A model generated the notes under the pieces. The model did not search any database and was not told where the DNA came from. It was given only the letters and a program-made list of their open reading frames with translations. Position numbers and translations under genes: made by a program. Positions 15,242 to 34,565 of a stretch of DNA of 64,000 nucleotides are shown piece by piece; position 1 is the stretch's first letter; the number at the start of each line of letters is the position of its first letter. The stretch spans positions 410,508 through 474,507 of the forward strand of contig NZ_LT706951.1 of the NCBI RefSeq assembly GCF_900155525.1, in the 5' to 3' direction. This stretch comes from Mailhella massiliensis (GTDB lineage Bacteria > Desulfobacterota > Desulfovibrionia > Desulfovibrionales > Desulfovibrionaceae).

Positions 15242-15243
15242 CC

Positions 15244-18833: not shown

Positions 18834-18845
18834 TCGGAATCTGAA

Positions 18846-18898
18846 GGCAATGCCCCCGCAGAACATGCCGTACTGCGGGGGCATTGCCGTTTTTTTTC
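18846..18898 (+). terminator. strong intrinsic terminator after phoU
   Basis: A 15-bp perfect stem (18846-18860 with 18874-18888), a 13-nt loop, then G and eight Ts. Confidence 0.95.
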
Positions 18899-18906
18899 TG
18901 CTGCAT

Positions 18907-18929
18907 CGCGACCTCATGGTCGCGTTTTT
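18907..18929 (+). terminator. second, tandem terminator after phoU
   Basis: A 7-bp perfect stem CGCGACC/GGTCGCG around TCAT, then five Ts. It immediately backs up the first terminator. Confidence 0.75.
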
Positions 18930-19566
18930 GCGTTAAACGCCGTGAGACCGGGCGGAAGAAAATCTTCCGTGTGGAAGAAAAATTCCTTTTGACAGGGGAA
19001 GAGTCCCTCCGTCAGCATGTTCGTACAGGCCGTTTTCAGGGGCGGCTGAACCGGTTAAAAAGAAGAGACAGGGGGCGCATGAAACATCCTGCGTAGAGGA
19101 AAAGGCGCTTTTTCTATCCCATGCCCTGAGAAGCCCGCCCGGGCCTTATGTTCCGTACCTGAAATCCCTTTGCCGGGGCGGTAACGGCAGGGCCCTGCGC
19201 GAACGTCTGCGCTCATATCGGGCAGGAGCTTTACGGCATAAAAGAAGCTCCACCGCATTCCGGCAGGGACTTTTGTCTGCCAGGGGAGAGGCGTTTTTCC
19301 GCGGGGATATATCTTCGGGAGATGGCGTGTATTCAGGCATTGACGTTTTTCGGCGGCAAGTTTTTCAGAGAAAGGAAGTTCCGGGGGCGTGGCGGTGTCG
19401 TCGGTGGAGCATTCCGGCAGGGGCTATGCTGTTTCCGGCGGTCGTTATGTCTTTTTCTTTCATGGCGGAAACGTTTCCTGCGGCGTTCAGGGGAATTCGA
19501 TGTTTGAAGTGGCCCCCGGCTATGGCTGCGGAAGGTGGTACGATGCCCGTATTCCGCGTTCGGAAT
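18930..19566. other. 637-bp gap, no gene seen
   Basis: Several short frames exist but none has a ribosome site with coding-like composition. A TTGACA occurs at 18999-19004 without a good -10 partner. No known RNA family was recognised. Confidence 0.35.
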
Positions 19567-19599
19567 AAAAAAAAGACGCCGGTCTTTGCGATCGGCGCC
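19567..19599 (-). terminator. intrinsic terminator of the uracil permease gene
   Basis: Stem GACGCCGG/TCGGCGCC (19575-19582 with 19592-19599, one mismatch and one wobble) is followed on the minus strand by eight Ts (19567-19574). Confidence 0.8.
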
Positions 19600-19651
19600 C
19601 TGTGAAGACGTCAGGAAGTCGACGGGCCGCCCTGCGGAGGCCGGGGAAAGA

Positions 19652-20902
19652 TCAGTCCTTTCTCAGCAGATGGAACTTGTCGAAGAGCTTGAAGCCCAGG
19701 CTCATGATGATGGCGATAATGGTGGCGAGCACCATGCCCTGAATGGTGATGGAACCGAAGCTGAGCTTGGCTCCGCTCAGACCGATGATCATGATGACGG
19801 AAGTCATGACAAGGTTGGAAGATTTGCTGTAATCCACCTTGCGTTCCACCAGTACACGCAGGCCCGAAGCCGCGATGACGCCGAACAGCAGCAGACATAC
19901 GCCGCCCATGACCGGCACGGGAATGCCCCGGATGAGTTCGGAAAGCTTGCCGACGAAGGAAAGCAGAATGGCCATGACCGCCGCACCGCCGAGCACCCAT
20001 ACGCTGTACACGCGGGTAATGGCCATGACGCCGATGTTTTCGCCGTAGGTGGTGTTGGGCGTCGCGCCGAAGAAGCCGGAAAGAATGTTGGAGCATCCGT
20101 CGGCGAACAGGGAGCGGGAAAGACCGGGGTCCTTGATGAGGTCGCGTCCGACCACGTTGCCGGTAACGAGAAGATGACCGATATGTTCGGCCAGCACCAC
20201 GAGGGCCGCCGGAGCGATGATGAGAATGGCGTTGAGGTCGAAGGTGGGCGCGTAGAATTCCGGCAGCTGGAACCAGGGGGCTTCCCTTACGGGCGTCAGA
20301 TCCACCATGCCCATGAAGAAGGCGAAAACATACCCGCAGATGACGCCGAACAGCACCGGAATGATGGCAAGAAAGCCGCGGAATGCCACGGAGCCGATGA
20401 CGGTGACGGCCAGCGTGAACATGGAAACCATCACGTTGTCCATGTTGATGTTGTCTCCCGTGAGTCCCGCCATGGAAGCTGCGGTGGGAGCAAGTTCCAG
20501 GCCTATGACGGCGATGATGGAACCCATGGCTGCGGGCGGGAAGATGACGTCGATCCATTTCGTCCCCACGGCCCGGATGAGCGCGGCGAACAGAATGAAG
20601 AGCAGGCCGAACACGATGAAGCCCGACTGTGCCGAGGAATAGCTGCTTGCCGCCATGATGGCCAGCACCGGGGAAATGAAGGCGAAGCTGGAACCGAGGT
20701 AGGAGGGAATTTTACCCCTGGTGAGGAAAAGATACAGCAATGTGCCTATGCCGTTCATGAACAGGCAGGTGGTGGGGTTTACCTTGAACAGGAAGGGCAC
20801 GAGCACGGTGGAGCCGAACATGGCGAACAGGTGCTGTATGCTCAGGGGGATGTTCAGAAGGAGCGGCGGGCGTTCCTCAACCTGGATGACATGGTGTTCC
20901 AC
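19652..20902 (-). CDS. uraA: uracil/xanthine permease (NCS2 family)
   Basis: A 416-residue, 14-helix proton symporter of the NCS2 family. UraA-typical features are the start NIPLSIQHLFAMFGSTVLVPFL, the QSGFIVFG stretch, the substrate loop ALVVLAEHIGHLLVTGNV with its conserved Glu, and TPNTTYGENIGVMAITRVYS (NTTY-x-ENIG is the uracil-permease form). It imports uracil for salvage. No pyrimidine gene is adjacent, and no PyrR-type attenuator was recognised upstream. Confidence 0.9.
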   Translation of the reverse strand: MEHHVIQVEERPPLLLNIPLSIQHLFAMFGSTVLVPFLFKVNPTTCLFMNGIGTLLYLFLTRGKIPSYLGSSFAFISPVLAIMAASSYSSAQSGFIVFGLLFILFAALIRAVGTKWIDVIFPPAAMGSIIAVIGLELAPTAASMAGLTGDNINMDNVMVSMFTLAVTVIGSVAFRGFLAIIPVLFGVICGYVFAFFMGMVDLTPVREAPWFQLPEFYAPTFDLNAILIIAPAALVVLAEHIGHLLVTGNVVGRDLIKDPGLSRSLFADGCSNILSGFFGATPNTTYGENIGVMAITRVYSVWVLGGAAVMAILLSFVGKLSELIRGIPVPVMGGVCLLLFGVIAASGLRVLVERKVDYSKSSNLVMTSVIMIIGLSGAKLSFGSITIQGMVLATIIAIIMSLGFKLFDKFHLLRKD

Positions 20903-21167
20903 GGTGATATCCTCGCTGGAAAAGTATGTATGAGTCGCGCTTCGGCATGTTCCGAAGTGCCGGTTCCCGGTGGACGCTTTCCGGCGCAGCGCCGGGCGGC
21001 GGCTTCCGCTCTGGTGCCGTGCGGCGGATGTTGCGAAAAAAGCTGATATTCCGGTGTGCTGTGTAAAAGGTTTTTCTGAGACGGGACTGCCTCAGGCTGC
21101 ACCTCCGCGGGCAGAGAAACACCGGGACATGTCTTGTATGGGGCGGATTCAGGGCATGAACGTTGCT

Positions 21168-21815
21168 TCAGGCCTGCTCCTTCATAAGAGCGAGCCTGCG
21201 GCCCATGTCGAAGGCTTTCCGGCAGTCTTCGGGGAAGACTTCGTCATGGTATTTCTTTTTTTCCGCAGGGTCGTAGCGGTCGGCCTCGTAAAGGCTGTAG
21301 TCGCTGAACTGCCAGGCGTTGGCGCTGTAGCAGATTTCGCTCTTCACGCCCAGCATTTCGCCCATGCGGGCGTGTATCGTGGCAAAGCGGCCGACGACGG
21401 AATCCGCAAGGTCCGCGGTCACCCCGAAGGTGTAGACGAAGGCTGAGGGAATCCTGCGGGGAAACACCCAGCGGTTTTCCCTGTTGTAGAGCATGTGGCT
21501 GAACAGAAAGCGGTGTTCCAGGGCGAGAAGCTCGGGCGTCACGTCGCCGTAGTAGACGGGGGAGCCGAAAATAATCCCGTCGGCCTCCTCCATCATGTCG
21601 AGAAAGGGAGAAAGTTCGTCTCTCATGGCACAGTGCCCGTGCCTTCCCGATTTGAGCTTGCAGGAAAAGCAGCTGACGCAGCCTTTGTATTTCAGAGGAT
21701 AAAGCTGGACAAGGCGTGTCCTGGCTCCTGCCGACTCAGCTCCGTCCAGAGCGGCCTGCAGCATGGTTGCGGTGTTGCCGCAGGCTCTGGGGCTGCCGTT
21801 GAACGCAAGTATCAT
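21168..21815 (-). CDS. flavodoxin-fold NAD(P)H-dependent oxidoreductase
   Basis: A 215-residue member of the NADPH-dependent FMN reductase / iron-sulfur flavoprotein (WrbA-like) group. The N-terminal FMN phosphate loop is FNGSPRACGNTATML, then GCVSCFSCK...GHCAMRDEL, a Cys arrangement like that which binds a [4Fe-4S] in archaeal Isf proteins, and GIIFGSPVYYGDV for the flavin ring. It is probably cytoplasmic; electron acceptor unknown. It is transcribed divergently from trmO, with a perfect 14-bp palindrome between them. Confidence 0.82.
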   Translation of the reverse strand: MILAFNGSPRACGNTATMLQAALDGAESAGARTRLVQLYPLKYKGCVSCFSCKLKSGRHGHCAMRDELSPFLDMMEEADGIIFGSPVYYGDVTPELLALEHRFLFSHMLYNRENRWVFPRRIPSAFVYTFGVTADLADSVVGRFATIHARMGEMLGVKSEICYSANAWQFSDYSLYEADRYDPAEKKKYHDEVFPEDCRKAFDMGRRLALMKEQA

Positions 21816-21866
21816 GGAAGCTCTCCTGTAGGTGGGGCGGAAGAAAAAGGTATGCTTTCGGCAAGC

Positions 21867-21880
21867 ATTCTCATGAGAAT
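21867..21880. promoter_or_regulatory. perfect 14-bp palindrome between divergent genes
   Basis: ATTCTCATGAGAAT is fully self-complementary and lies 52 bp before the flavoprotein gene. Its halves resemble Fur/PerR-type half sites. The regulator is not known. Confidence 0.5.
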
Positions 21881-21970
21881 AAAGCGGAACATTTTCTCTT
21901 GCAAGTTGAAATCGCTCCGTCGTTCCGGCTGCGCCTTGCCTGATGCGGACGCTTCCGTTATGGTTCGGGC

Positions 21971-22645
21971 ATGGATATCATTGCCCGTATACATACCGAT
22001 CTGCCGTCGAAGTTCGGCGTGCCCCGTCAGAGCGGCCTTGTGCAGGAGCTGAAGGGGCGTATCGTGTTCACTCCCGAGTACAGAGACCCCGAGGCCCTGC
22101 GCGGAATGGAGGATTTTTCCCATATCTGGCTTATCTGGGAGTTTTCCGAAGCCCGCTGCGAGCGCTGGTCGCCCACGGTAAGACCTCCGCGCCTCGGCGG
22201 CAACATACGGCTCGGCGTGTTTGCCACTCGTTCCCCCTTCCGGCCGAACAGCATGGGGCTTTCCTGCGTGCGCCTGGAAAAGGTGGTGCTGCACGGGGAG
22301 GAAGGGCCGGAGCTGCATGTTTCCGGCATAGACCTCATGGACGGTACGCCCATTTTCGATATCAAGCCCTATATTCCTTATGCCGATTGCCATCCCGAAG
22401 CTACGGGCGGCTTTACGACGACGCTTGCCGATGTCACTCTTGAGGTGGATTTTCCCGAAAAATGGCGGGCGCTGTTCAGTGTGGAGCAGCAGGCCTCCAT
22501 TACGGGCATACTTTCGCGCGATCCGCGTCCCCATTATCACCGCGATCCCGGCAGAATATACGGTATGCCCTTTGCGGGAAGGGATATCCGTTTCCGCGTC
22601 CGGGACGGCGTGGCGGAAGTGGTGGATGTGGCAACGGAAGGATAA
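21971..22645 (+). CDS. trmO: tRNA (N6-threonylcarbamoyladenosine(37)-N6)-methyltransferase TrmO
   Basis: A 224-residue TrmO/YaeB (UPF0066) protein that methylates t6A37 in Thr tRNAs using SAM. It shows IARIHTDLPSKFGVPRQSGLV, then EDFSHIWLIWEFSE, the SAM-binding RPPRLGGNIRLGVFATRSPFRPNSMGLS region, and GIDLMDGTPIFDIKPYIPYAD. The C-terminal domain has the DPRP...YGMPF block. A usual full-length form. Confidence 0.93.
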   Translation: MDIIARIHTDLPSKFGVPRQSGLVQELKGRIVFTPEYRDPEALRGMEDFSHIWLIWEFSEARCERWSPTVRPPRLGGNIRLGVFATRSPFRPNSMGLSCVRLEKVVLHGEEGPELHVSGIDLMDGTPIFDIKPYIPYADCHPEATGGFTTTLADVTLEVDFPEKWRALFSVEQQASITGILSRDPRPHYHRDPGRIYGMPFAGRDIRFRVRDGVAEVVDVATEG

Positions 22646-22990
22646 CCGGAGGCGCTTTTCATGGCTGCACGGCGGCGGAGGGGCTTTTTCCTTCGCCGTT
22701 TTTCATCGGGAGAAGCTGCGGAGCCCGGCCGTTTGAGAATATGCGGCAGGGACGTGAATACCGTTCTCCCGGAAAAGCCTGCGGAATTTTCCTCACGGGC
22801 CGGGGCCGCCGTGCGCATTCGCGGGAAGCGCCATGCTTTTTTCCGATGATTGCCGCAGAGGGGCATGGAGATCCGAAACTTCCTTCGGGAAAGGCGTATT
22901 CCGTCGGAGAATCCTGCTTGCCGGTTCGGCACGGGGGCCGTACCTGCGGAGAAGAGTATTTTTATATGATTCTCGTCATGACGGCAGTTT
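22646..22990. other. 345-bp gap between convergent trmO and TauE genes, no gene seen
   Basis: Open frames here are short and low-complexity. No clear terminator hairpin with a T tract was found for either flanking gene. Confidence 0.35.
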
Positions 22991-23728
22991 TCAGGCGAGG
23001 GCCTTATACAGGAGCATCACGGCGGACAGACTGAGAAAGATGAGAAGCAGCCGGATGAATACGCGCTGGTTCAGATACCGTCCTATGATATATCCCAGCT
23101 TCTGGCCGATGAAGACTGCGGCGATGCCCACAGCGGCGAGTTTGAAGAATTCCGGGCGGTACAGGCCGGCAAACCACTGACCGGCCAGCGTGGCCCATCC
23201 GCTCACAAGAAAGAGCATGGCCATGGTGCTTCTCGCCCTGTCAGGCTGCCAGTCCTTGAACAGAAGAAAAATGCCTATGGGCACGCCGCCTACGGAAACG
23301 GAGGAATTGGCAAAACCGCTGGCAAGTCCCGTAACGAGCAGCGAAGCGGCGGAATCCTTGATACGGAACGTCGCGTTTTTTTTGATGAGCTGCAACACGA
23401 CGAAACAGGCGATCATGAGGCTTATGCCTATCTGCAACCACTGTATGGGCACGACCTTGAGCGCGAGAGCCCCCAGAAAGCATCCCGGAACACAGCTTGC
23501 CCAGAGCCACAATACATCCGTCCAGACAAGTCCCTTTCGGTACAGCCAGGCGAGCTGCGTGCTGCCCGGCGCGCCGATGATGCAGCAGGTCAGTATGGCA
23601 TCCGTAACAGGCATACCGAGCAGAACGACGGGCAGGGCCGCCATCATGCCGCCGATTCCCGCGATGCCGCTCACAAGTCCGCCGAAAAGCCATCCGAAGA
23701 AAATATAGACATAGGTTGCAGTGATCAT
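22991..23728 (-). CDS. TauE/SafE family sulfite/sulfonate exporter-like permease
   Basis: A 245-residue protein with about eight helices and the family repeats GLVSGIAGIGGMMAALPVVLLGMP (half one) and GLASGFANSSVSVGGVPIGIFL (half two). TauE/SafE proteins move sulfite, sulfoacetate, thiosulfate or other organosulfur anions. TGGAGG lies 6 nt before the ATG. It follows the SLC13 gene on the same strand after hairpins, so it may be a separate unit of the same functional cluster. A sulfur-anion cargo is inference only. Confidence 0.82.
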   Translation of the reverse strand: MITATYVYIFFGWLFGGLVSGIAGIGGMMAALPVVLLGMPVTDAILTCCIIGAPGSTQLAWLYRKGLVWTDVLWLWASCVPGCFLGALALKVVPIQWLQIGISLMIACFVVLQLIKKNATFRIKDSAASLLVTGLASGFANSSVSVGGVPIGIFLLFKDWQPDRARSTMAMLFLVSGWATLAGQWFAGLYRPEFFKLAAVGIAAVFIGQKLGYIIGRYLNQRVFIRLLLIFLSLSAVMLLYKALA

Positions 23729-23875
23729 CGCAGGCCTCCAGAATTTGTGCCGATCACATCCCCTGTACGGGCGAAGCCGACCTTAGAATATTTTCGTATC
23801 CTTGAAAAGGTATCATTTCCGCATGTTGTCGAAGGCCGCCCCCGTTTTTTCCGGCACAGGACGGGCAGAAAAAAC

Positions 23876-23957
23876 GCTCACCGGCAAGGGGGGGACGAGT
23901 CCGTGCCGATGAGCGGTGAGGGGCCGGGCATCCGTTCCGGCATGGAGGATGCCCGGC
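23876..23957 (-). terminator. paired hairpins at the end of the SLC13 gene
   Basis: An 11-bp perfect stem (23923-23933 with 23947-23957) is followed, on the minus strand, by a long-loop stem CTCACCG/CGGTGAG that ends in CGTTTTTTC. The second is the likelier terminator. Confidence 0.55.
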
Positions 23958-23969
23958 GTTTCGGGGGCG

Positions 23970-25433
23970 CTACAGGAAGATTTTCCCCGTCAGTATGACG
24001 ACGGCGGTCACGATGCACAGGGAGGCGACAACGAGAATCGGCGCCGTCCGCCAGATGGCTCTGGTCGTTATCCAGTCGTTGCCGTGGAGCATGGCGGCGG
24101 TCGAGCTTGCGGCGGGGGTGAGGAAGGCAAGGCAGCAAGCCACGGTCACCAGAATGACGGGCTGTTCGGCAAGCATGCCGTTTGCCGTGCAGTAGGAGAA
24201 TATGACGGGCATGAGGGCTACGGAAATGGCCGTATTATTGATGAACTGCGTGAGTATGACGCCTACGATGCCGATGCATATCAGGAACTTGATGCCGGAG
24301 CCCGTACCGAAGAAGGGCGTCAGTATTTCCAGCATGAAGGCCGTAATGCCGCTTCTGGGGTCGGATATGGGGCCGGAAAGCGGCAGAACGAAGGCCAGAA
24401 TGAAGATGATGGGCCAGGCCACGCCTTCATTGACCATGGCCCGCCACGGGCAGAGCGCTTTGCCGTTGACTTTTATGGCCGCAAGCAGCGCCACCAGAAG
24501 AACGCACACGCCGGTATTGCCGATTTTTTTGAAGAACACCGCAACGGCGAGATCCCTGGGAAGAAATCCCGGGAGCATCATGAACAGTATAAGGGCGATG
24601 AGGAAGGCGAAAAGGAGCTTCTGCACGCCGGACAGCTTCATGTCCTCATCGGTGATGAGAGTTTTGATGTCCAGACCGGTAAGCTTGCTCAGATCCGGCC
24701 GGAGCAGAAACTTGCCGATGAGAATGAACGCCAGCAGGCAGAGCAGGCAGGACAGGAAGGAGGCGAACATGTAGATGGTGTAGTTGACGGTGGCGCCGGA
24801 AAGGCCTTCATAAGCGCTTATGGCGACCAGCGGGAGCGATTTGAAGGGGATGAGCGCCATGCCGAGCTGACTGGCGAAGACGGCGCCGATCACCATCATC
24901 ATGGGGTAGCCCTCATGCTTTTCATAACCGCAGAATTTGAACATGCCGTACATCAGGCTCCAGCCGATGACACATGCGGGCGTGGCGCTGGACAGGCCTC
25001 CGAGAACGGATATGGCCAGAAGCAGGGCGAAACTCAGCAGCCACGGCCTTCCCTTCACGCATCTGCGGCTTACGAACCACATGGAAATCCACCTCGTCAC
25101 GCCGTAACTGTCGAGAACCGTGCTGAAGACGAAGATGAATATCATCATGACGACGGTCGGGTCGCCGAAACCCTTGTTGAAGAGGGTGTTGATGGGCATG
25201 ATGTCCAAGAGACCTATGGCGAGGAGTCCTATCATGCTGGGCCAGATGACGTCTATGAAGATCCATGCGTACACGACGCCGATGAGCGCGCCGAGCACAT
25301 TCATGCCGTAGGGGGTCAAAGGAGGTGTCGGGTCCAGCCTGCCGAAGAAGAAGGTGATGGCAAGAAAGACGGCGATATGGAAACAGCGCTTCACGTCTAT
25401 GGAAGCTTTTGCGGTACGTTCCGGGGCGGCCAT
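23970..25433 (-). CDS. SLC13 (DASS)-family sodium/anion symporter
   Basis: A 487-residue membrane protein, about 11-12 helices. The SLC13 signature halves are visible: an SNT-like segment near SSATPACVIGW in half one and FINNTAISVALMPVIFSYC (NNTA with following S/T) in half two, plus TPAASSTAAMLHG, a second clamp. Family cargos are di- and tricarboxylates, sulfate and related anions. The start at 25433 was chosen because GAGAGG lies 6 nt upstream. It follows the ferredoxin gene but is separated by a terminator-like hairpin. Confidence 0.85.
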   Translation of the reverse strand: MAAPERTAKASIDVKRCFHIAVFLAITFFFGRLDPTPPLTPYGMNVLGALIGVVYAWIFIDVIWPSMIGLLAIGLLDIMPINTLFNKGFGDPTVVMMIFIFVFSTVLDSYGVTRWISMWFVSRRCVKGRPWLLSFALLLAISVLGGLSSATPACVIGWSLMYGMFKFCGYEKHEGYPMMMVIGAVFASQLGMALIPFKSLPLVAISAYEGLSGATVNYTIYMFASFLSCLLCLLAFILIGKFLLRPDLSKLTGLDIKTLITDEDMKLSGVQKLLFAFLIALILFMMLPGFLPRDLAVAVFFKKIGNTGVCVLLVALLAAIKVNGKALCPWRAMVNEGVAWPIIFILAFVLPLSGPISDPRSGITAFMLEILTPFFGTGSGIKFLICIGIVGVILTQFINNTAISVALMPVIFSYCTANGMLAEQPVILVTVACCLAFLTPAASSTAAMLHGNDWITTRAIWRTAPILVVASLCIVTAVVILTGKIFL

Positions 25434-25455
25434 GCGGTCCTCTCTGTAATCAGGT

Positions 25456-25488
25456 GGCAAAAAGGGAAGAGCCGCAGGAGCTCTTCCC
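25456..25488 (-). terminator. terminator-like hairpin between ferredoxin and permease genes
   Basis: A 9-bp perfect stem GGGAAGAGC/GCTCTTCCC (25464-25472 with 25480-25488), a 7-nt loop, then TTTTTGCC on the minus strand. It would let the enzyme genes be expressed more strongly than the permease from the shared promoter. Confidence 0.75.
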
Positions 25489-25502
25489 GGGATCAGGGCC
25501 GT

Positions 25503-25715
25503 TCAATACGGCAGGGGGGTAGGTCTGTTTCTGATGGTGTCGACCTTGATGGCGTCCTTCGGGCAGTAGATCTGACAGAGGAAGCACGACTGGCAGTCTT
25601 CGCGATAGCAGATTTCCGGCACGGTCTCACCGGCGCGAAACACGTCGAGAGGGCAGATTTTCACACAGGTTCCGCAGTTGACGCACTTTTCCGAATCAAT
25701 GGTAAAAACAGGCAT
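25503..25715 (-). CDS. small 2[4Fe-4S] ferredoxin-type subunit
   Basis: A 70-residue protein with two cluster motifs, C-x2-C-x2-C-x3-C-P in EKCVNCGTCVKICPLDV and again in DCQSCFLCQIYCPKDAI. The length is that of a dedicated ferredoxin subunit, comparable to the beta subunit pairing seen with AprA-type flavoproteins but shorter than AprB. It lies 33 bp downstream of the FAD oxidoreductase gene and is presumed to pass electrons to or from it. Confidence 0.9.
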   Translation of the reverse strand: MPVFTIDSEKCVNCGTCVKICPLDVFRAGETVPEICYREDCQSCFLCQIYCPKDAIKVDTIRNRPTPLPY

Positions 25716-25748
25716 GGAGCACTCCGTAATCAGGTATGGGCAGGGCGG

Positions 25749-27434
25749 TTAGAGCGGATAGACGGGGAGCCCGTAGCGCTCGAATTTTTCCGTCTGAACA
25801 GGTTCTCTGGTAATCTCGATTTTGCCGTCCTTCAGCTTCGACTTGAGCCACACGTTCCATTCCTTCTTCATTTCGGGGTAGTCCGTGCGGTAGTGGGAAC
25901 CGCGGCTTTCCTTTCTTTCCAGTGCGCTGGTGAAGGTCAGCCGGGCCGTCGTCAGCATTCCGCAGAGTTCATGATACAGCATGAGCTCGTGCGTATTGCG
26001 GACGATGATTTCGTTTTCAATATCTTCTTCAATCCGGTCAAGCGCAGTCAGCGCTTCCTTCAGGTTTTCCCCGCTGCGGATGATGTTGTATTTCGCGGGA
26101 ATCACGCAGGACTGAATACGGTAGATGGCTTCGTCGATGGAAAGACGGCCTTCATGTCCGAGCTTGGCGAAGGTCTTTTTTCTGACGGCCTCCACCTGTT
26201 CCTCATCAAGGGGCAGAAGTTCCGTGCCTTCGCAGGCTTTGGCGGCTCCCTCACCGGCACGGAAACCGGAGATGCAGGCCCAGCCGAGATGAACGGCTCC
26301 TGCGCCTGCAATGGAACCGATGAGCAGTCCCTGATTGGCCATGTCGCCGGAAGCGAAGAGGCGGGGTACCGTGGTATCGCAGGCAAAGGATTTCAGCGTG
26401 AGTCCGCTTCCTGAACTTGTGGACCCCATGAATCCGGGAATCCATTCGACGGAATCCTCGAACGGATCTATGCCGCAGCTTTTGCAGGCAGCAAAGAAGG
26501 TGGGAACGATGCGGTAGCTGAGTTCGCGGTCTTCCGCGCTCATGTTTTTTAGGTTGAAGTATATGGGGCCGCGTCCTTCGTTCACTTCCGTGGTCATGGC
26601 GCGTACGAGAATGTGCAGAAGGGCGCCGTCCTTGTTTACAGGGTCGTACCTGTCCATGAACGCTTCCCCCAGAGCGTTGGTGAATCTGCCGCCGAGCCTT
26701 TGGAAGCGGCTCATGCCGCAGATGTCGAAATCCCTGGCCGTGGAGTTGTAGCAGTTGGAAAATTCCATGTTGGTGAATTCCGCTCCTGCCCGAAGAGCCA
26801 TGGTGTTGCCTTCGCCGGATTCCATGTCCTGACCGTGATACTGCCCCTTGAAGCTGCAGCTGCCGGTGCTGAGGATGGTGTTCTTGGCATGAAAGATATG
26901 GAACTGCCCTGTGCGGACATGGAATCCGGTCGCTCCGACGACTTCGCCGCTGTTCGTGAGCAGATCGGTGACCTGCACGCGGTCGACAATGGTCACCCCC
27001 AGTTTTTCCAGCCTGGCGCGGAGTTTTCTCATCATTTTGAATCCGGGGAAGACGACGGCGTGATTGTGGCCGCGGCCGGGCTTGCGTTTGAACCTGCCGT
27101 CGGCATCCTTTTCAAAATCCATGCCCCAGGTGTTCATCATGTTGATGATTTCCGTGGAACTTTTCGCGTACCATTCCATCCACTCCGGGTCGAACATGCC
27201 GTTGCCGTTTCTGTTCCAGCGTTCCAGCCATTCCTGAAGACTGTCCTGTTCTGGATCGAAATACAGCATGTCTCCGGCGGCAAAGCAGCTTTCGCCGCTG
27301 CCTCCCACCCATGCCTTGTCGACAAGAACGACGCTGCGGCCCGCCATGGCCGCAGCGCAGGCCCCCATGCATCCGGCCATGCCGCCGCCGAGAACCAGAA
27401 CGTCCGCGCTTTTCTGTTCAGTTTTGGGAATCAT
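25749..27434 (-). CDS. FAD-dependent oxidoreductase, fumarate-reductase/AprA superfamily
   Basis: A 561-residue cytoplasmic flavoprotein, no signal peptide. The dinucleotide site is VLVLGGGMAGCMGACAAAMAG with the acidic LVDKAW end; then GGSGESCFAAGD, the second FAD segment LFASGDMANQGLLIGSIAGAGAVHLG, and the succinate dehydrogenase/AprA-type C-terminal helices ending RKESRGSHYRTDYPEM. It does not carry the covalent-His motif of classical FrdA/SdhA, and with a small ferredoxin partner it looks like an AprBA-style two-subunit enzyme. The substrate is unknown. AAGGAG lies 7 nt before the ATG, and a sigma54 promoter lies upstream. Confidence 0.82.
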   Translation of the reverse strand: MIPKTEQKSADVLVLGGGMAGCMGACAAAMAGRSVVLVDKAWVGGSGESCFAAGDMLYFDPEQDSLQEWLERWNRNGNGMFDPEWMEWYAKSSTEIINMMNTWGMDFEKDADGRFKRKPGRGHNHAVVFPGFKMMRKLRARLEKLGVTIVDRVQVTDLLTNSGEVVGATGFHVRTGQFHIFHAKNTILSTGSCSFKGQYHGQDMESGEGNTMALRAGAEFTNMEFSNCYNSTARDFDICGMSRFQRLGGRFTNALGEAFMDRYDPVNKDGALLHILVRAMTTEVNEGRGPIYFNLKNMSAEDRELSYRIVPTFFAACKSCGIDPFEDSVEWIPGFMGSTSSGSGLTLKSFACDTTVPRLFASGDMANQGLLIGSIAGAGAVHLGWACISGFRAGEGAAKACEGTELLPLDEEQVEAVRKKTFAKLGHEGRLSIDEAIYRIQSCVIPAKYNIIRSGENLKEALTALDRIEEDIENEIIVRNTHELMLYHELCGMLTTARLTFTSALERKESRGSHYRTDYPEMKKEWNVWLKSKLKDGKIEITREPVQTEKFERYGLPVYPL

Positions 27435-27470
27435 AGTGTCTCCTTGCGGTAAGATGTTTCCTCCTGCAAA

Positions 27471-27486
27471 GCAAAATTTGTGCCAA
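27471..27486 (-). promoter_or_regulatory. sigma54 (-24/-12) promoter of the flavoprotein operon
   Basis: The minus strand reads TTGGCACAAATTTTGC: GG and GC are separated by exactly 10 nt and the match to TGGCAC-N5-TTGC is nearly perfect. Transcription would start about 25 bp before the ATG. It faces the PrpR-like sigma54 activator gene. Confidence 0.9.
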
Positions 27487-27548
27487 TATATTTAATATGT
27501 TGATTTAAAAGAGTATTGCCTTTTTCGTCGTTTTTTCTGTCTTTTGTT

Positions 27549-27600
27549 TTTGTTGCATTATGAAACAAAATGTTGCATCTGTTTAAATACTCATGAAACA
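27549..27600. promoter_or_regulatory. paired inverted repeats, candidate activator sites
   Basis: Site one (27549-27569) is TTTGTTGCAT-T-ATGAAACAAA, a 10-bp inverted repeat with one mismatch. Site two (27571-27600) uses the same half sites, TGTTGCAT and ATGAAACA, spaced by 14 nt. They lie 65-120 bp upstream of the sigma54 promoter, the usual place for enhancer sites, and just before the regulator gene, allowing autoregulation. Confidence 0.8.
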
Positions 27601-27633
27601 AAAAGTCCTTTCCGGGGGCACAGGCGGTTTTTT

Positions 27634-29520
27634 ATGAAGGACGTTTTTATTCTCGCCACACATCGGTCGCTGGTACAGAAAGCGGAAAGCCTCATTGCCG
27701 GGGGCGGACTTGAGCGGATTGATGTCGTCTTCTGCAAAACGGTGAAGGAAATACTTGCGTTCGTGACGGAGGATCTTCCGGGAACGGCGGAGGTCCTCCT
27801 CACCATGCCCGGACCGGCGCTGCTTGTGGAAGGTGTCCTTCAGGACAGGATTCCCATTCTGTCCATAGAATACAATAACATCGACATCATCCGAGGCCTT
27901 TGCGGCGCGCTTTCCGTCTGCCCGGGAAGCGTGGCGCTCGGCCATTATAAGGAAGAGAATCCCCGCATCGGAGATATCCGGGAAATGGTCGGTCGCCCGT
28001 TCATGAATTTTCTTTTCGGCGACGACGACAACGCCAACAGAAATATTCTCCGGCAGGTCAAAGAGCAGGGCGTTACGGCCGTGGTCGGAGGAGGCTATAT
28101 CTGCAATATTGCGCAGGAGATGGGGCTTTCCGTCTTTCCGCTGGAAGTCAACCTCGCCACACTGCGGAAAACCATACGAAATGCGCTTTCCATTGCCGAT
28201 ACAAGACGATTCGCCCGCTACTCCCGGCGCAATACCGACATGATTCTGAAGTATCAGGCGGAAGCCGTCATGACGGTCAACAGCGAAAACAGGGTGACAT
28301 TCTTCAACAAGAGTGCCGAACACATATTCGGTATGGCCGGTGAAACGGCGCTCGGGAAGCTTTCCACACAGGTGCTTCCCGACAACCGTTTCGCGGAAGT
28401 GCTGGCGGACCGGTCCCCTGTGGAAAACTTTCTTCATGCGCTGCCGCACATGGATATTCTCGGTGATTACCGGCCGGTGCTGGATAACGGCATCGTTATC
28501 GGAGCTGTGGGAACCTTCAGTCCCATGACGGAAATTCAGAAGAAAGAGGAACTCGTCAGAAAATACTACACGCCGAAAAACGCGGGGCCGCGCTTTTCAT
28601 TCGATGATTTTCAGGGCGATACTCCCCGCTTTCGTGCGCTGCTGGACAAAGCCCGCTGCTTTGCCCTGACGGATGAAACGGTTCTCATTACAGGGGAAAG
28701 CGGTACGGGCAAGGAGGTGATGGCCAGCAGCATACATAACGCCAGCAGGCGGCATGACAAGCCTTTTCTTGCCATCAACTGCGCGTCTATTCCCGCAACG
28801 CTTATGGAAAGCGAGTTGTTCGGCTATGAACCCGGAGCCTTTACCGGCGGCAGAAAAAACGGCGCGCCCGGCATGTTCGAGTCGGCTCACGGCGGAACGC
28901 TGTTCCTTGACGAAATAGGAGAAATGCCCTTTGAGCTTCAGGCAAAGCTGCTGCGCGTCATTCAGGAACGAAGGGTGCGCAGGATAGGTTCATCGCGGGA
29001 ACTCCCTGTTGATGTCCGTATCGTCGCCGCCACCAACAAGATTCTGGAACATGAGGTGGCGCAGCACAGATTCAGAGTCGATCTGTACTACAGGCTGAAT
29101 ATTCTTCATATTCACATGCTGCCTTTGCGTGACTATGCCGACAATATAAGCGATATTGCCGGAAACATGCTTTCCCGGCTGGCTCCGGAGTCTTCCTATG
29201 CCGATCAGAAGCATTTGCGGAACCTGCTGAAAAAGCTGAATTCCTACGACTGGCCCGGAAATATGCGGGAACTTGAGAATATGGTGCGGCGTTATGCGGC
29301 GCTCAGCCCCTACCTGAGGCGTCCCGTCAGCCTCGGCGATATCTTTACCCGACCCGACCTTCAGGAAAAAACGATCGGCTCCGTGTCTTCCCGCAAGGAT
29401 CAGGAACTGCAGAGAATACGGGAAGCCTTCGACAGACTGCACGGAAACAGAACACAGATAGCCCGGGAACTGGGGATTTCCCGCTCCACGCTCTGGAGAA
29501 AACTGAAGATGCTTCATTGA
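27634..29520 (+). CDS. PrpR-like sigma54-dependent transcriptional activator
   Basis: A 628-residue activator. Residues 1-185 look like the PrpR N-terminal sensor domain (ligand-binding, type I periplasmic-like); 200-300 is a PAS domain (QAEAVMTVNSENRVTFFN); the AAA+ core has Walker A GESGTGKE and Walker B GGTLFLDEIGE; a Fis-type helix-turn-helix closes the protein (NRTQIARELGISRSTLWRKLKML). The sigma54-contact loop reads GAFTGG rather than GAFTGA. The start at 27634 fits the domain; the frame is open 30 codons further up. It is divergent from the flavoprotein operon and presumably activates it on sensing the substrate. Confidence 0.9.
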   Translation: MKDVFILATHRSLVQKAESLIAGGGLERIDVVFCKTVKEILAFVTEDLPGTAEVLLTMPGPALLVEGVLQDRIPILSIEYNNIDIIRGLCGALSVCPGSVALGHYKEENPRIGDIREMVGRPFMNFLFGDDDNANRNILRQVKEQGVTAVVGGGYICNIAQEMGLSVFPLEVNLATLRKTIRNALSIADTRRFARYSRRNTDMILKYQAEAVMTVNSENRVTFFNKSAEHIFGMAGETALGKLSTQVLPDNRFAEVLADRSPVENFLHALPHMDILGDYRPVLDNGIVIGAVGTFSPMTEIQKKEELVRKYYTPKNAGPRFSFDDFQGDTPRFRALLDKARCFALTDETVLITGESGTGKEVMASSIHNASRRHDKPFLAINCASIPATLMESELFGYEPGAFTGGRKNGAPGMFESAHGGTLFLDEIGEMPFELQAKLLRVIQERRVRRIGSSRELPVDVRIVAATNKILEHEVAQHRFRVDLYYRLNILHIHMLPLRDYADNISDIAGNMLSRLAPESSYADQKHLRNLLKKLNSYDWPGNMRELENMVRRYAALSPYLRRPVSLGDIFTRPDLQEKTIGSVSSRKDQELQRIREAFDRLHGNRTQIARELGISRSTLWRKLKMLH

Positions 29521-29525
29521 GCCGG

Positions 29526-29682
29526 GCATCATGCATCGCTCATACCATGATGAGCATGGTTGATGCGGATATGCTGCCGGGAAAATGCCGTCCGGTTCTT
29601 GATCGCCGGATATGATTTTCAGAAAAGGATACTTCTCTGGTATGCCGTCATGCAACCGGTACATACTGTACCGGTTGCATGA
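29526..29682 (+). terminator. two hairpins after the activator gene
   Basis: The first (about 29526-29567, core GCTCAT/ATGAGC) follows the stop codon. The second is a 16-bp perfect inverted repeat (29648-29663 with 29667-29682) with a 3-nt loop. Neither has a T tract; a terminator or protein-binding role is inferred from position. Confidence 0.45.
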
Positions 29683-29956
29683 GAAGAAACGGCTGAAAGC
29701 ATGAGATATGCGGCCATGCCGCAGGGAGAAAAGTTTTTTTGAGAAGCGGTATGCTCCGCAGTCATTCACGCAAAGGAACCTTTTTGTGAGAATGACGTAT
29801 GGACTGGCTCCCTTGTACGCACGGCCTGCGGCATACAGGGAAGGCGTTTCTTTCGGCTTGTTCCGGCCGGCGGGGAGAAACGGGCGGAGATGAGGGGGAA
29901 ATGTTCTGATACATTACTAATATATTATATAATAACAGCGTATTGCATCATGTTTG

Positions 29957-30690
29957 CACCTCAAAAACTTTTTAAAAGTTTTTGAGGTGTTGTTTAAGAT
30001 TGAAAACTCCCCGCTATGCGGGGAGTTCCAAAAAGGCGAAGCCTTTACATAAGTTAAAAAAGGGGTTCCTTTGTGCGATAACCAGTTGTCTCGACTCGAA
30101 ATCTATACACAAAGAAACCCAATAATGAATGACCAGAGTTTAAACCATACCCGTTGGAGCTGCAAGTATCACATTGTTTTCGCTCCGAAATTCAGACGCA
30201 AGCTGGTATACGGAAGGTATCGCAGAACGATCGGCGAAATTCCGAGAAAACTGTGTGAATACAAAGGAATAGAGATAGTGGAAGCAAATGCGTGTGTGGA
30301 CCATATTCATATGTGCGTCAAGATTCCGCCCAAGTATAGCGTGGCGCAGATCATGGGGTATTTGAAAGGGAAGAGTTCTTTGATGATATTCGAGAGTTTT
30401 CCGCATCTGCGCTACAAGTTCGGCAATCGCCATTTCTGGTGTACCGGTTATTTTGTCAGCACGGTGGGAGTAAATGAGGCGACCATCATCAAATATGTGA
30501 GGGAGCAGGAAGAACGAGACAAAATAACAGACCAGTATAGCCTGGTAGAACGGCCCGTCAGCTCGTTTACGAGCAGCAGAAAATAACTCTTCGGCAAGAG
30601 TCGAGACAGAGCCCTCTTAAGAGGGCAGCCGGGTAACAGACCCTTATAGGGTCAAATCAAACCGCCCCTTGAAGGGGCGGTCCTGACTGT
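29957..30690 (+). mobile_element. IS200/IS605-family insertion sequence (IS200-like)
   Basis: A single-gene element: a Y1 transposase flanked by subterminal hairpins instead of inverted repeats. On the left are hairpins at 29957-29989 (16-bp stem) and 30005-30027 (AACTCCCCGC/GCGGGGAGTT); on the right at 30611-30626, 30639-30653 and 30661-30681 (10-bp stem, ACCGCCCCTT). No TnpB/IscB and no omega-RNA-like region is attached. Exact cleavage ends cannot be fixed from one copy. Confidence 0.8.
30125..30586 (+). CDS. tnpA: IS200-type Y1 transposase TnpA
   Basis: A 153-residue HUH transposase that works on single-stranded DNA as a dimer. It begins NHTRWSCKYHIVFAPKFRRKL, the usual IS200 start; the HUH motif is DHIHM; the catalytic Tyr is in NEATIIKYVREQE. 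The start at 30125 (ATG) was preferred to the upstream GTG at 30071 because the family begins here. The ORF is full length and not interrupted, so the copy may be active. Confidence 0.92.
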   Translation: MNDQSLNHTRWSCKYHIVFAPKFRRKLVYGRYRRTIGEIPRKLCEYKGIEIVEANACVDHIHMCVKIPPKYSVAQIMGYLKGKSSLMIFESFPHLRYKFGNRHFWCTGYFVSTVGVNEATIIKYVREQEERDKITDQYSLVERPVSSFTSSRK

Positions 30691-31025
30691 TTGTCAAAAA
30701 CACAAGGGGAAAAGAAGAAAAAGCAGTTCCGTTTTGTTGTATAAAAACATATAAAAATCAATAAAAACAATATGTTATGCTGAATTTTCTTGCCATGGAA
30801 AGACTCGTGTGCTACACCTTGAGCACGCGGAAAGAGATTCTGCGCGAGCCGCTGTGACCTCATGCAGACCGTGGCGAAGCAGGCAGGGTGGAGTAGTCAG
30901 CTTTGCGCTGTGAAGTAGCTGTGGGATAGTGAAATGAGGAAAGTCCCGCCTTTCCTTGGGCCGGGCATGAGGGCGGCCGGAGACGGCCGCCCCGTCAGCA
31001 ACATTCTGCCAAAAGGAGTCAGACC
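30691..31025 (+). other. AT-rich stretch and structured leader before the 126-aa orphan gene
   Basis: 30691-30790 is very AT-rich. 30800-31010 contains three hairpins: CGTGTGCT/AGCACGCG (30806-30829), AGGAAAG/CTTTCCT (30937-30956) and the 9-bp GGGCGGCCG/CGGCCGCCC with a GAGA tetraloop (30971-30992). It may be a long structured 5' leader or a small RNA; it does not match a family I recognise. Confidence 0.45.
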
Positions 31026-31406
31026 GTGGAAGATAGGGAAGTTATGGAAATATGGAGTGAAATCAAGAAGTTCGTCGAACAGAATCCTGGCATATACACG
31101 ACGCGGTGGAAAAACGGTCGCGAGGGAGTCCGTTTCAGGGCAGAAAATATCCGGGGTGATATTTATATCTCCGTTCAGGAACATAAGGGCGGAAACACCT
31201 CCGGGGCGGAGAGTGAAACGGCACCGGACTACAGATGTATCGGGCGACTGAAGAATGAAGACTTTCCGGCCCTGTATTCCCTTTATCTGCGCAGAGAGAA
31301 GGGGGAAGCGGTCAGCCGGGAAGCCGGCAAGGTAAACAGACGTCCGATTTATTTCTGGGGGCTTATTTACTGGGCATACGAAAAGAAAAAGAAGCCTCAG
31401 CTGTAA
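31026..31406 (+). CDS. hypothetical protein, 126 aa
   Basis: Not recognised. The start is GTG with AAGGAG spaced 7 nt, which supports translation. The protein is highly charged at the N-terminus (MEDREVMEIWSEIKKFVEQN), has alternating strand-like segments (RGDIYISVQEH), and ends with an aromatic, basic tail (RPIYFWGLIYWAYEKKKK). No signal peptide and no membrane helix are apparent. It lies downstream of the IS200 copy in the accessory region, with a structured leader upstream. Confidence 0.65.
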   Translation: MEDREVMEIWSEIKKFVEQNPGIYTTRWKNGREGVRFRAENIRGDIYISVQEHKGGNTSGAESETAPDYRCIGRLKNEDFPALYSLYLRREKGEAVSREAGKVNRRPIYFWGLIYWAYEKKKKPQL

Positions 31407-31713
31407 AAGCCGGGCAGCTCATGGGAGGCGGTATGCCTTCCGAGAGGGGCCGGTCTTCCGTCATGCCATTTTCGTATCGGCAAAACAGGCGATGTACGAA
31501 ATTTGCGTCAACTCATGGCGTTATTTCGGTGTCGTCTGCGACGGTGAAGGTTTTGCGTGTTTCGTATGCTTTCATCAGGAAGGGGGAGAACAGAGTCAGG
31601 AAACTGCACATGCCGTGCGAGGTGTGAACATGCTCTGGACTTCCTCCTTCGTTTTTCGACTGGGGGAGAGGCCGGGGCGCGGGCGTTTTCCACGGTGCTG
31701 CGGAGTTTGTTTC
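31407..31713. other. 307-bp gap, no firmly supported gene
   Basis: An ATG frame from 31492 has a protein-like, Cys-rich start (MYEICVNSWRYFGVVCDGEG) but runs antisense into the DUF1653 gene and lacks a spaced ribosome site. It could be a decayed or very short gene. Confidence 0.35.
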
Positions 31714-32001
31714 TCAGTCCATGCGTTCAAAACGATACCGCTGTCTGACATCTGGATACTTTGTTTTATCCACCTCAGACATGAACATATCGAGAGGCCT
31801 TGCAAAAACCTTGAGAGCGTCGTTTTCTTTCAGGTCATAGCGGGCTTCATAGATCACCAGCGTTTCCCTCGTTTCGGAATGCGTGGCAAAGCCCAGTATT
31901 TTATAGGTGTACATGGGGGAATCGGCGGGGCAGCGTTCGTGCTTGAAGTGGCGGACGATGTCACCGGCCTTGAAGGGCGGGCGGGGATTGAATTCTGACA
32001 T
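31714..32001 (-). CDS. DUF1653 domain protein
   Basis: A 95-residue protein that is essentially one DUF1653 domain: GDIVRHFKHE, then YTYKILGFATHSETRETLVIYEARY and the closing FARPLDMFMSEVD. The family is small and widespread in bacteria, with no settled function; the pattern 'current status of a commodity plus period' suggested in some annotations is not evidence. The start at 32001 has CAGGAG 7 nt upstream; the longer frame upstream is AT-rich and was rejected. Confidence 0.85.
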   Translation of the reverse strand: MSEFNPRPPFKAGDIVRHFKHERCPADSPMYTYKILGFATHSETRETLVIYEARYDLKENDALKVFARPLDMFMSEVDKTKYPDVRQRYRFERMD

Positions 32002-32351
32002 GCCGGTCTCCTGAAAGAAATTGTTTCTGTGGCCGGATGAGCGCTGCCGTATGTTGTTGCGGCGCAGCCATGACCGTTGCTGAGAAGAAAGTGGTCGATA
32101 CACCCTGGTCATCAGTGGCCTTGGGATATCAGGGGAAAATGCAACTGGCAAGGGCGGAAACGCGGACATAGGGTTGAATCCTCGGCGGGAAGAGGGCCGG
32201 CATGATATTTCAAAACAGGGGGTATTTTTTTGTAGATAACTATAACTTGTTGATAATAAATAAAAATAAAAAAATGAACCATTGCCGGAATCTGGAACGA
32301 TGTCTTGATAGCCAGTCCTTGTGAAAACATGGGAGGAGGTATCGCAGATAT
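32002..32351. other. 350-bp AT-rich divergent region
   Basis: This lies between the DUF1653 gene and the AAA+ gene. It is strongly AT-rich at 32225-32275 (TAAATAAAAATAAAAAAATG). It likely carries both promoters; several -10-like boxes are present and no single pair can be chosen. Confidence 0.4.
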
Positions 32352-34565
32352 ATGTTCCTTGAAGGTGCAGATCAAATCCAGTCCGCAGACAGCCCTGAAG
32401 CCATGTATGCCAGGCGCAGGGCCGCACATTGGATTCTTAATATGGCGGAGGAATCGCCGGTTCTTGATACCGCTCTTTTTCGATGTGTGCATTGGATATG
32501 CGGAAGTCTTCGATCCGTTCTCGAAGATGTGGAGAGACGAATTTCAACGCTCGAAAGCAGGGCGGGCAGAGCCGCACATCATGCCGTTCTGGAAGAACTC
32601 GGCAAGGATGCACATCATCATGTGGAAGGGTGCAGCATTCTTGCGGATGAACATCCGTATGTCTGTTCGTACTGCTGGGAGCAGATTCAAAAGCAATGTC
32701 GTCACGTTGCAGAGAACAGGAATGTTTCTCTGGCTGTGGAATATATTGTGGCGGGAAACGAACTGAATCGGGTATTCGGTCTTGATGAAGATGGCATCGC
32801 TGTTTGCGAGTTTGCGTTTATTCTTCAACATTTTCCTGAGCTTAAAATGTATTTTGCTGCCGGTCTTGGCATATTCGGGCCGGGCGGCCTCCGGCTGATG
32901 GCACAGATGTTGAGCATGTCACAGGATATCCTGTCGGATCATCTTGGTATGTTGCTTTGTTTTGGCATACTCGAGTATGATAAAGATCGTTCTTTTCATC
33001 TGATACCGGCGGTCAGTGCCTTCTGGTCGTCACGGTTTTCTGTGGACGCTTCCTTCTTCTGCAGCGCCTTCAAAGACGATCTGCTGCCGCTTAAGTCTTT
33101 CCGCGTTCCCGGTGAAGAAGTGCGTCATGTATGCCGTTTATTGAAAGAGCACGTTGATTTTTCAGTGAATATTCTGCTTTATGGTCCATCAGGATCCGGT
33201 AAAAAGACATTTGCGCACAGTCTGGCAAAAAATATTGGAATGAAGGTCTGCCTTGTCAGCAGCCGAGGAAAAAACAGCGAGGGGGAATGCCGGGCTTCGT
33301 TTCTGGCCTGCCTGCATAGGGCGTCTTTGCAGAAGGGAACCCTTATTGTCGTGGATGGCGCTGAACGACTGCTCAGTACGGATTTTGATGTTGAGGGTGT
33401 TTCCGGTAGTCAAAGAAAAAATACAGCGGATATGATCTTCGCTTTTGAGAAGTCCGGCCAGAAAATAGTGTGGATTACAGATGATGTGGAGAAAATTGAG
33501 CCGTCGGTCAGACGTCGTTTCATATACAGTATACATTTTGAGTCGCTGGGGGTACGGGAACGCGTAGAGATGTGGCGCCATGTACTGAAAAGGCAGGGGT
33601 TGTCCCGGCGTTTTGATAAATCATACATGACAGGCCTTGCCATGAAATATCCTGTACAGGCAGAAGTCGTACAGAGCGCTATTATACAGGCATCTTCCTT
33701 GTATCCTTCAGGAAATAGATTTTATACTGCGCTTGATCGCATTCTTAAAGCGCATCTTGCTCTGCAACATGGAGGAAGGCTTTCTTCAAAAAAAGTATAC
33801 GGAGCCGTTTCTGATTTTACATTAAATGGCGTATGTATGGAGGAAAATATTTCTGTATTCATGGAGCGCTGTCAGCGTATGGATGCAGCCATGCGTTCTG
33901 GCAAAGTGCTGCGTCCGGGATGCGGAACCATGCTTTTCTATGGTCCGCCCGGTACGGGGAAGACGGCACTGGCCCGTTTTGTTGCGGAAACCTTGAATCG
34001 TGAATGTATCGTGAAGCGTGCCAGCGATCTGTTAAGTCCTTTTGTCGGAGTGAGTGAACAGCAGGTGGCGGAAGTTTTTGGCGAAATGGAAAAAAACGGT
34101 GCCGTGCTGGTCATAGATGAGGTGGATTCGTTTCTTTATTCGCGTGACGGAGTACACCATTCCTGGGAAATTACCCTGGTCAACGAGTTTCTTACTTCAT
34201 TGGAGGAGTGCCATGGCTTTTGCATATGCACTACGAACAGGAGAGAGTATCTCGATAAGGCGGCAATGCGGAGATTTTCGTATAAATTAAAGTTCTGCTA
34301 TGCTGATTTTTCCCGCGTGAAAGCTCTGTACCGCAAACTTCTTGCTCCTTTGTGTAAAGCACCGATGTCCGAAGCTCTTTGGCTGAGGCTCTCAAACATG
34401 CGATACCTTACCCCCGGCGACTTTCATGCCGTACGGGCAAAATATGATCCCCTTTTTACAAAACCGGAAGAGATTACTCATGAACTTCTTGTACAGGCGC
34501 TCTCTCATGAGATGTCTCTGAAAATGGATTCAAAAGAGCAGACTTTGGACATTGTCATTGATTAA
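32352..34565 (+). CDS. tandem AAA+ ATPase with a long N-terminal domain (function unknown)
   Basis: A 737-residue protein. Residues 1-260 form a helical region with no recognised enzyme motif, ending in a winged-helix-like segment. The first AAA+ module (about 260-480) has Walker A GPSGSGKKT (residues 278-286) with Lys where Thr/Ser normally coordinates Mg, and Walker B LIVVDGAERL where the catalytic Glu is Gly, so it looks non-hydrolysing. The second module (about 510-720) is intact: GPPGTGKTA (531-539), VLVIDEVDSF (near 588), sensor CTTNR, and arginine finger MRRFSYKL. GC content and codon use are lower than in the neighbours, indicating transfer. GGAGGAGG lies 12 nt before the ATG, a long spacing. 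It stands between an IS200 copy and a tRNA-Ser gene. Confidence 0.85.
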   Translation: MFLEGADQIQSADSPEAMYARRRAAHWILNMAEESPVLDTALFRCVHWICGSLRSVLEDVERRISTLESRAGRAAHHAVLEELGKDAHHHVEGCSILADEHPYVCSYCWEQIQKQCRHVAENRNVSLAVEYIVAGNELNRVFGLDEDGIAVCEFAFILQHFPELKMYFAAGLGIFGPGGLRLMAQMLSMSQDILSDHLGMLLCFGILEYDKDRSFHLIPAVSAFWSSRFSVDASFFCSAFKDDLLPLKSFRVPGEEVRHVCRLLKEHVDFSVNILLYGPSGSGKKTFAHSLAKNIGMKVCLVSSRGKNSEGECRASFLACLHRASLQKGTLIVVDGAERLLSTDFDVEGVSGSQRKNTADMIFAFEKSGQKIVWITDDVEKIEPSVRRRFIYSIHFESLGVRERVEMWRHVLKRQGLSRRFDKSYMTGLAMKYPVQAEVVQSAIIQASSLYPSGNRFYTALDRILKAHLALQHGGRLSSKKVYGAVSDFTLNGVCMEENISVFMERCQRMDAAMRSGKVLRPGCGTMLFYGPPGTGKTALARFVAETLNRECIVKRASDLLSPFVGVSEQQVAEVFGEMEKNGAVLVIDEVDSFLYSRDGVHHSWEITLVNEFLTSLEECHGFCICTTNRREYLDKAAMRRFSYKLKFCYADFSRVKALYRKLLAPLCKAPMSEALWLRLSNMRYLTPGDFHAVRAKYDPLFTKPEEITHELLVQALSHEMSLKMDSKEQTLDIVID

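Follow-up and report, generated by a model that had tools for sequence, protein, structure and literature searches.

The closest described relatives of the system analysed here are AsfA and AsfB, a reductase–ferredoxin pair whose asfRAB genes have been reported on a plasmid replicon of Cupriavidus metallidurans CH34 (PMC2864759, available part). In Pseudomonas putida S-313, asfA mutants lose the use of aromatic sulfonates and keep that of aliphatic ones, and AsfA/AsfB are described, in the accessible part of a review, as an electron transport chain for C-S oxygenation (PMC4267179). A Mailhella species is presented, in the available text of another study, as likely to respire isethionate through IslAB/HpsGH and DsrAB (PMC13219744). 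Here, we analyze a stretch of 64,000 nucleotides from Mailhella massiliensis (contig NZ_LT706951.1, positions 410,508 to 474,507; hereafter, the window), which belongs to a genome of 3.47 Mb (G000). In this window, a divergent activator gene faces an operon encoding an AsfA-like flavoprotein, a ferredoxin, and a permease. DNA comparison supports the view that these four genes form a cassette that travels between related genomes, and we tentatively propose that they constitute a sensed module that would import and reduce an organic anion, probably as an electron sink. Our literature search, thin on subscription journals, found no publication on this cassette.

Organization and Transfer of the Cassette

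The cassette proper, delimited from open reading frames (ORFs) and Pfam domains, extends from position 23970 to 29520 of the window; the start at 22991 given in the initial annotation is that of the neighboring tauE gene. The first gene of the operon (25749–27434, minus strand) encodes a FAD flavoprotein of 561 amino acids (aa) with the Pfam domains FAD_binding_2 (3.2e-34) and Succ_DH_flav_C, in which no signal peptide was seen by eye. It is followed on the same strand by the gene of a 70-aa 2[4Fe-4S] ferredoxin (25503–25715; ORF, Pfam, and alignment), whose second motif DCQSCFLCQIYCP is of the AsfB type, and by that of an SLC13/CitMHS permease of 487 aa (23970–25433; ORF and Pfam). The sigma-54 activator (27634–29520, plus strand; ORF and Pfam) has 628 aa, with a PrpR_N sensor, a weak PAS domain, and HTH_8. 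ORFs and Pfam thus agree with the divergent arrangement first described, which recurs in three further genomes.

Indeed, a flavoprotein orthologue was found in 4 of the 19 genomes of the genus (G000, G089, G138, and G156), and the three copies outside the window genome display activator, flavoprotein, ferredoxin, and permease in identical layout, with respective identities to the window copy of 63–77%, 87–91%, 91–93%, and 81–87%. No flavoprotein orthologue was found beyond the genus in samples of 149 family, 297 class, and 395 phylum genomes, and the best identity outside the genus did not exceed 36% in the class and phylum samples. A pattern scan of genome contigs, which detects close relatives only, matched 88 stretches, of which 2 were relatives, both from Mailhella; plasmid relatives of the flavoprotein reach 34% identity at best. 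When the other window genes (47 called) were matched around the three relatives, keeping matches of at least half length and 45% identity, only a response regulator (55%) and a transposase fragment (45%) were recovered.

The genomes G138 and G156 have 7,163 bp in common at 98.9% DNA identity, spanning the cassette, and no other long DNA match was found in its flanks (54 and 29 kb compared). Three other stretches common to these genomes, at the loci compared, are 85, 75, and 93% identical. Because the two copies are 98.9% identical inside unlike flanks, we conclude that the cassette moves between genomes; the high identity in G138 and G156 is most simply explained by recent transfer between the two, judged against a background of these three stretches only. 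The common block extends about 1.2 kb beyond the activator and includes an IS4/5-type transposase fragment (PF13340). G089 matches the other copies inside the cassette only (blastn), and an IS200-type transposase lies 0.6 kb beyond the activator of the window copy.

Several features surround these copies. In G138, the region beyond the activator (L043:11900-13665) holds the IS4/5-type transposase fragment together with a phage-type recombination gene of the ERF family, at the border of the stretch common to G138 and G156. In the window, the cassette lies inside a variable stretch of falling GC content that runs from tauE to a Fic gene (23800–35300); this stretch also carries the IS200-type transposase (30125–30586) and an AAA ATPase (32352–34565), and different genes are found there in G127. 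Two tRNA-Ser(gga) genes (34878–34968 and 38571–38661) stand on the same strand about 3.7 kb apart, with the Fic gene and a gene for a 564-aa protein between them.

TauE (22991–23728, minus strand; ORF and Pfam) had been counted as a fifth member, the exporter of a "complete pathway". All five genes are indeed in place, but no TauE match adjoins the other three cassette copies. The closest TauE orthologue (82%) is found in G127, a genome without a flavoprotein orthologue (best match 33%) that is collinear gene by gene with the window from 10376 to 23728, at 81–99% identity. The single exception is a small gene, located at 31714–32001 in the window, which stands between trmO and tauE in G127 and has a second copy further along in that genome. 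Beyond tauE, G127 carries other genes. In the gap between permease and tauE, two GC-rich hairpins are predicted, the second followed by six T, without shuffle control. Since it is missing beside three copies and belongs to the backbone of G127, which has no cassette, TauE is a neighbour and not a part of it; we therefore reject it as the exporter, and the complete pathway goes with it. The neighborhood search that had been suggested returned four genes in 4 of 19 genomes, TauE not travelling along, and what stands of the proposal is a regulated carrier and a redox enzyme of two subunits that stay linked in several genomes.

The Flavoprotein and Its Relatives

The flavoprotein had been assigned to the superfamily of fumarate reductase and AprA. 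Pfam confirms the superfamily; however, the tree against AprA and FrdA that had been called for places the protein outside both groups. It falls with AsfA into a clade of 33 rows, separated by a split of 100/99 in one tree and 95/90 in another from AprA and from succinate dehydrogenase/fumarate reductase (SDH/FRD), in trees for which the tool flags long branches meeting. This clade comprises the window lineage, an SSS/TRAP lineage, the AsfA lineage, Ilyobacter proteins, and an SLC13/TRAP lineage, whose internal order is a polytomy; a sister relation of the window lineage to the AsfA lineage is neither supported nor rejected, with a p-AU (approximately unbiased test) of 0.464. As judged from these trees, the flavoprotein is a lineage of its own inside the AsfA-containing clade. 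The trees include three of the four cassette orthologues. In the first, 8 of 66 rows were dropped (six apparent wrong-strand ORFs, one wrong-frame AprA, and one truncated sequence); in the second, 21 of 66 (the previous discards and near duplicates), with 10 added; in the third, 19 of 55, with 4 added. A structure prediction from the window flavoprotein and two loci gave a mean predicted local distance difference test (pLDDT) of 35.4, too low to use.

Profile comparisons gave no closer name, and no NCBIfam cut-off is exceeded by the enzyme, carrier, or regulator proteins of the cassette. The best NCBIfam model for the flavoprotein is PRK08275 (211.5 against a 587-bit cut-off). The statement that no named pathway has this exact set holds to that extent, but the flavoprotein–ferredoxin pair does have a named relative in AsfA/AsfB and, in view of this kinship, the idea of a sulfonate substrate, raised from the outset, stays possible.

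We compared the residues of the active site with E. coli SdhA and FrdA (K-12 record). At SdhA H242, T254, E255, R286, H354, and R399, which we take to be active-site residues, the flavoprotein has Y229, M241, S242, L273, M336, and I375, so that all six differ; the R399 column reads I375 in one alignment and G in the other. The histidine H45, presumably the one linking FAD, corresponds to G47. In the AsfA lineage, the 286 and 354 columns hold R (6/7) and E (7/7), where the flavoprotein has L and M. The column after R286 holds H274, and a histidine is also found there in 13 of 13 members of the SLC13/TRAP lineage; we can only speculate that proton transfer has passed to H274.

The unannotated plasmid region of C. 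metallidurans CH34 presents a ferredoxin frame after the flavoprotein, the single such place in the record. Since asfRAB was reported on that replicon, we presume this flavoprotein to be AsfA. Our ferredoxin fits C-x2-C-x2-C-x3-CP and DCQ-x-CF-x-C-x3-CP, shows 43% identity with its C. metallidurans counterpart across 54 aa, and lacks the second AprB motif in alignment. A tblastn search gave 151 plasmid records with relatives of the flavoprotein, all below 60% identity. In eight regions hand-picked from them, seven of which are annotated, the annotated relatives have an adjoining ferredoxin gene in 7/7 cases, ABC transport genes in 6/7, and genes named for sulfur use in 4/7 (SsuA-type, SfnB, TauD, and cysE).

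Closer to the window, 25 clade members from Desulfovibrionaceae, at loci picked by flavoprotein similarity, all have an adjoining ferredoxin-like stretch, which in some makes up the N-terminal portion of a larger oxidoreductase. Carriers near them are SLC13 in nine (nearest stretch within 0.6 kb), SSS in six, and TRAP in four; six of the nine SLC13 carriers belong to other lineages and are 47–53% identical to the cassette permease. In another Desulfobacterota class, a ferredoxin directly adjoins the clade member in 4/4 cases, with TRAP-TAXI binding proteins beside all four and a DctM gene in the two with long loci (Pfam). The flavoprotein family is widespread and little studied.

The window genome itself carries 11 flavoproteins of the superfamily, that of the cassette included (contigs C13, C16, C19, C27, and C28; L044-L053); the search gave 14 matches, counting one NadB-like protein and two short fragments. 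Most of these paralogues, by eye, adjoin ferredoxins or GltD-like Fe-S oxidoreductases and TRAP, TTT, or SLC13 carriers. At one locus (L051:6633-10755), the flavoprotein gene adjoins those of a Na_sulph_symp carrier and of an Amidohydro_2 protein whose N-terminus presumably resembles that of resorcylate decarboxylases; this is perhaps a phenolic-acid module.

Sensor, Control Sites, and Carrier

The activator carries the domain set of PrpR, i.e., PrpR_N, the sigma-54 domain, and HTH_8 (Pfam), with a score below the PrpR equivalog cut-off (342.6 against 499.2 bits). Its sensor matches the solved domains 2q5c (1.8e-5) and PrpR 2pju (3.5e-4), and its C-terminal end can be aligned to E. coli PrpR, recognition helix included. 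Upstream of the operon, a sigma-54 (-24/-12) type promoter, TTGGCACAAATTTTGCT (27470–27486, minus strand), is the single exact match to TTGGCAY-N5-TTGCW in 64 kb; two matches are obtained with at most one mismatch, against 1.32 expected. The promoter is kept in two relatives and its -12 element is altered to TTGA in a third (L009). The palindrome TGTTGCATTATGAAACA (27551–27567), a partly conserved block in the alignment, is a candidate activator site: a pattern built from the site itself matches once at up to two mismatches, against 0.05 expected. A second half-site pair, TGTTGCAT ... ATGAAACA (27571–27600), was recognized from the sequence and the alignment of relatives. In the gap between ferredoxin and permease genes, a terminator-like hairpin and T-run (25464–25488, minus strand) show the hairpin in 4/4 copies and the T-run in three; the whole region has 15 such sites, against 7.3 expected. 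Promoter, upstream half-sites, and pre-permease hairpin thus recur across cassette copies. The 12-mer TTGTTTCATAAT, common to this locus and the propionate operon, is absent from the three relatives and its length is matched in 15 of 1000 shuffles; we rejected it as weak evidence of a PrpR-like operator.

The permease passes the CitMHS model PF03600 (71.8 bits, cut-off 31.9) and stays below the NCBIfam DASS cut-off (TIGR00785, 57.1 against 198.6 bits). Its two SNT motifs, which we take to be the carboxylate signature of SLC13/DASS, read SAT (the first) and NNT, in a weak alignment to VcINDY (E 0.0097).

A Candidate Import-and-Reduce Module

Our favored, still tentative, reading is that the activator would sense a small organic anion inside the cell and turn on the operon at the -24/-12 type promoter. 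The SLC13-type carrier would then bring in the organic anion, perhaps by exchanging it for the product, and the cytoplasmic flavoprotein, receiving electrons from its own ferredoxin, would reduce it. This reduction would most likely serve anaerobic growth as an electron sink. The hairpin before the permease gene may hold the enzyme above the carrier through partial read-through. As to the substrate, AsfA kinship and the sulfur profile of the genus favor a sulfonate, and SLC13 and PrpR favor a carboxylate.

Several points weigh against this reading. The cassette is present in just 4 of 19 genomes of the genus, the catalytic residues of fumarate-reductase type are gone with no proven replacement, and sequence alone gives no direction of electron flow. 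Moreover, 6 of the 25 Desulfovibrionaceae clade members have none of the sought carrier types within 4.5 kb, some loci ending early, and the fractions obtained from these loci, near copies included, are no census.

In a first alternative, the AsfAB-type pair would cleave or activate an imported sulfonate and deliver sulfite to DsrAB. Besides the clade shared with the presumed AsfA, the AsfB-type motif of the ferredoxin, and the sulfur-use genes beside plasmid relatives, the sulfur context of the genus argues for it. AprA exceeds its cut-off in none of the 19 genomes, 11 of which are at least 90% complete, and in 7 of 7 hand-picked other genomes of the family; DsrA exceeds its own in 12 of the 19, among them G000, G089, and G138. 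With DsrA and no AprA, sulfate is unlikely as an electron sink, a point that also speaks for the favored reading; the host is a sulfite-reducing type of gut bacterium, and its profile fits the isethionate respiration reported as likely, in the available part, for a Mailhella species (PMC13219744). On the contrary, the cassette genome G156, 100% complete, has no DsrA, which speaks against a fixed link between cassette and sulfite. The accessible part of the same report proposes IslA/HpsG-type lyases for sulfonate cleavage, and that of PMC4267179 assigns AsfA/AsfB to oxygenation. The cassette itself has no sulfur gene, TauE not being linked, and the nearest lineages by score have SSS or TRAP carriers. 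We hence consider reductive desulfonation unlikely.

A shorter AprA-like protein (L088, L096) occurs in three genomes (G151, G040, and G029), at 381–386 bits, below the AprA cut-off, and branches in the tree as the sister of true AprA.

Reactions of this superfamily can proceed either way, and PrpR and SLC13 proteins typically accompany carboxylate catabolism; the flavoprotein could thus dehydrogenate an imported organic acid and pass the electrons to the ferredoxin, the anion being an electron donor. The model of the tricarballylate dehydrogenase TcuA does match, but at 61 bits, far under its 369-bit cut-off, and the four copies have no recurrent catabolic gene beside them, so that this oxidative use appears unlikely.

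Very unlikely is a fumarate-reductase-like enzyme acting on a di- or tricarboxylate: Succ_DH_flav_C and the TIGR01812 score (179.8 of 567 bits) point to it, but the six replaced SdhA residues and the position outside the FrdA/SdhA clade rule out fumarate reductase identity, and the first carboxylate motif of the carrier reads SAT in its weak alignment. An APS or PAPS reductase has a negligible chance: among solved structures, the PAPS reductase alpha subunit 8a8o scores highest (121.8 bits), but AprA identity is ruled out by the equivalog score (TIGR02061, 91 against 641.75 bits) and the separate clade, and the ferredoxin has no second AprB motif.

A bolder extension of the import-and-reduce proposal, which we regard as quite doubtful, is that AsfA/AsfB-type pairs would be reductases acting on their substrates rather than oxygenase helpers, and that anaerobic gut bacteria would carry sets of them, each with carrier and sensor, for respired anions or sulfonates; the cassette would then be a transfer-spread form of anion reduction or desulfonation independent of oxygen and radicals. 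In any case, the cassette links a family that we encountered in the literature solely under the name of asfA, a sulfonate gene of soil bacteria, to carrier-plus-enzyme modules in anaerobes. As it has its own sensor, promoter, carrier, and enzyme, its substrate can be found by induction, and one substrate identified would inform work on similar modules of Desulfobacterota from the gut and elsewhere.

Comparison with Known Systems

With fumarate reductase and succinate dehydrogenase, the flavoprotein shares the superfamily and the C-terminal domain, but the six active-site residues differ and the cassette has no gene for an FrdB-type or membrane subunit. AprAB and the Methanothermococcus PAPS reductase likewise join a FAD subunit to a 2[4Fe-4S] ferredoxin-like subunit (PMC10322725, available part); unlike them, the flavoprotein stands in a separate clade and the 70-aa ferredoxin has no AprB tail. 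The regulator resembles PrpR of the propionate operon in its three domains, its recognition helix, and its divergent layout, but it has 628 aa instead of 528, and the cassette has no methylcitrate genes.

Beyond orthologues, the highest scores (33–35% identity, up to 314.5 bits) are those of SSS-/TRAP-linked pairs of Desulfobacterota, among which we found no characterized member; their ferredoxins carry the DCQSCF motif, whereas their carriers differ and their clade is separate (100/100). Among described systems, AsfA/AsfB (asfRABC) of C. metallidurans CH34 and P. putida S-313 share with the cassette the flavoprotein clade (30% identity with that of C. metallidurans), the ferredoxin frame directly after the flavoprotein, and the AsfB-type second cluster motif. 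According to the accessible part of PMC4267179, asf combines a LysR regulator with ABC/binding-protein transport, whereas the cassette, in an anaerobic family, unites the same kind of pair with a PrpR_N/sigma-54 activator and an SLC13 carrier.

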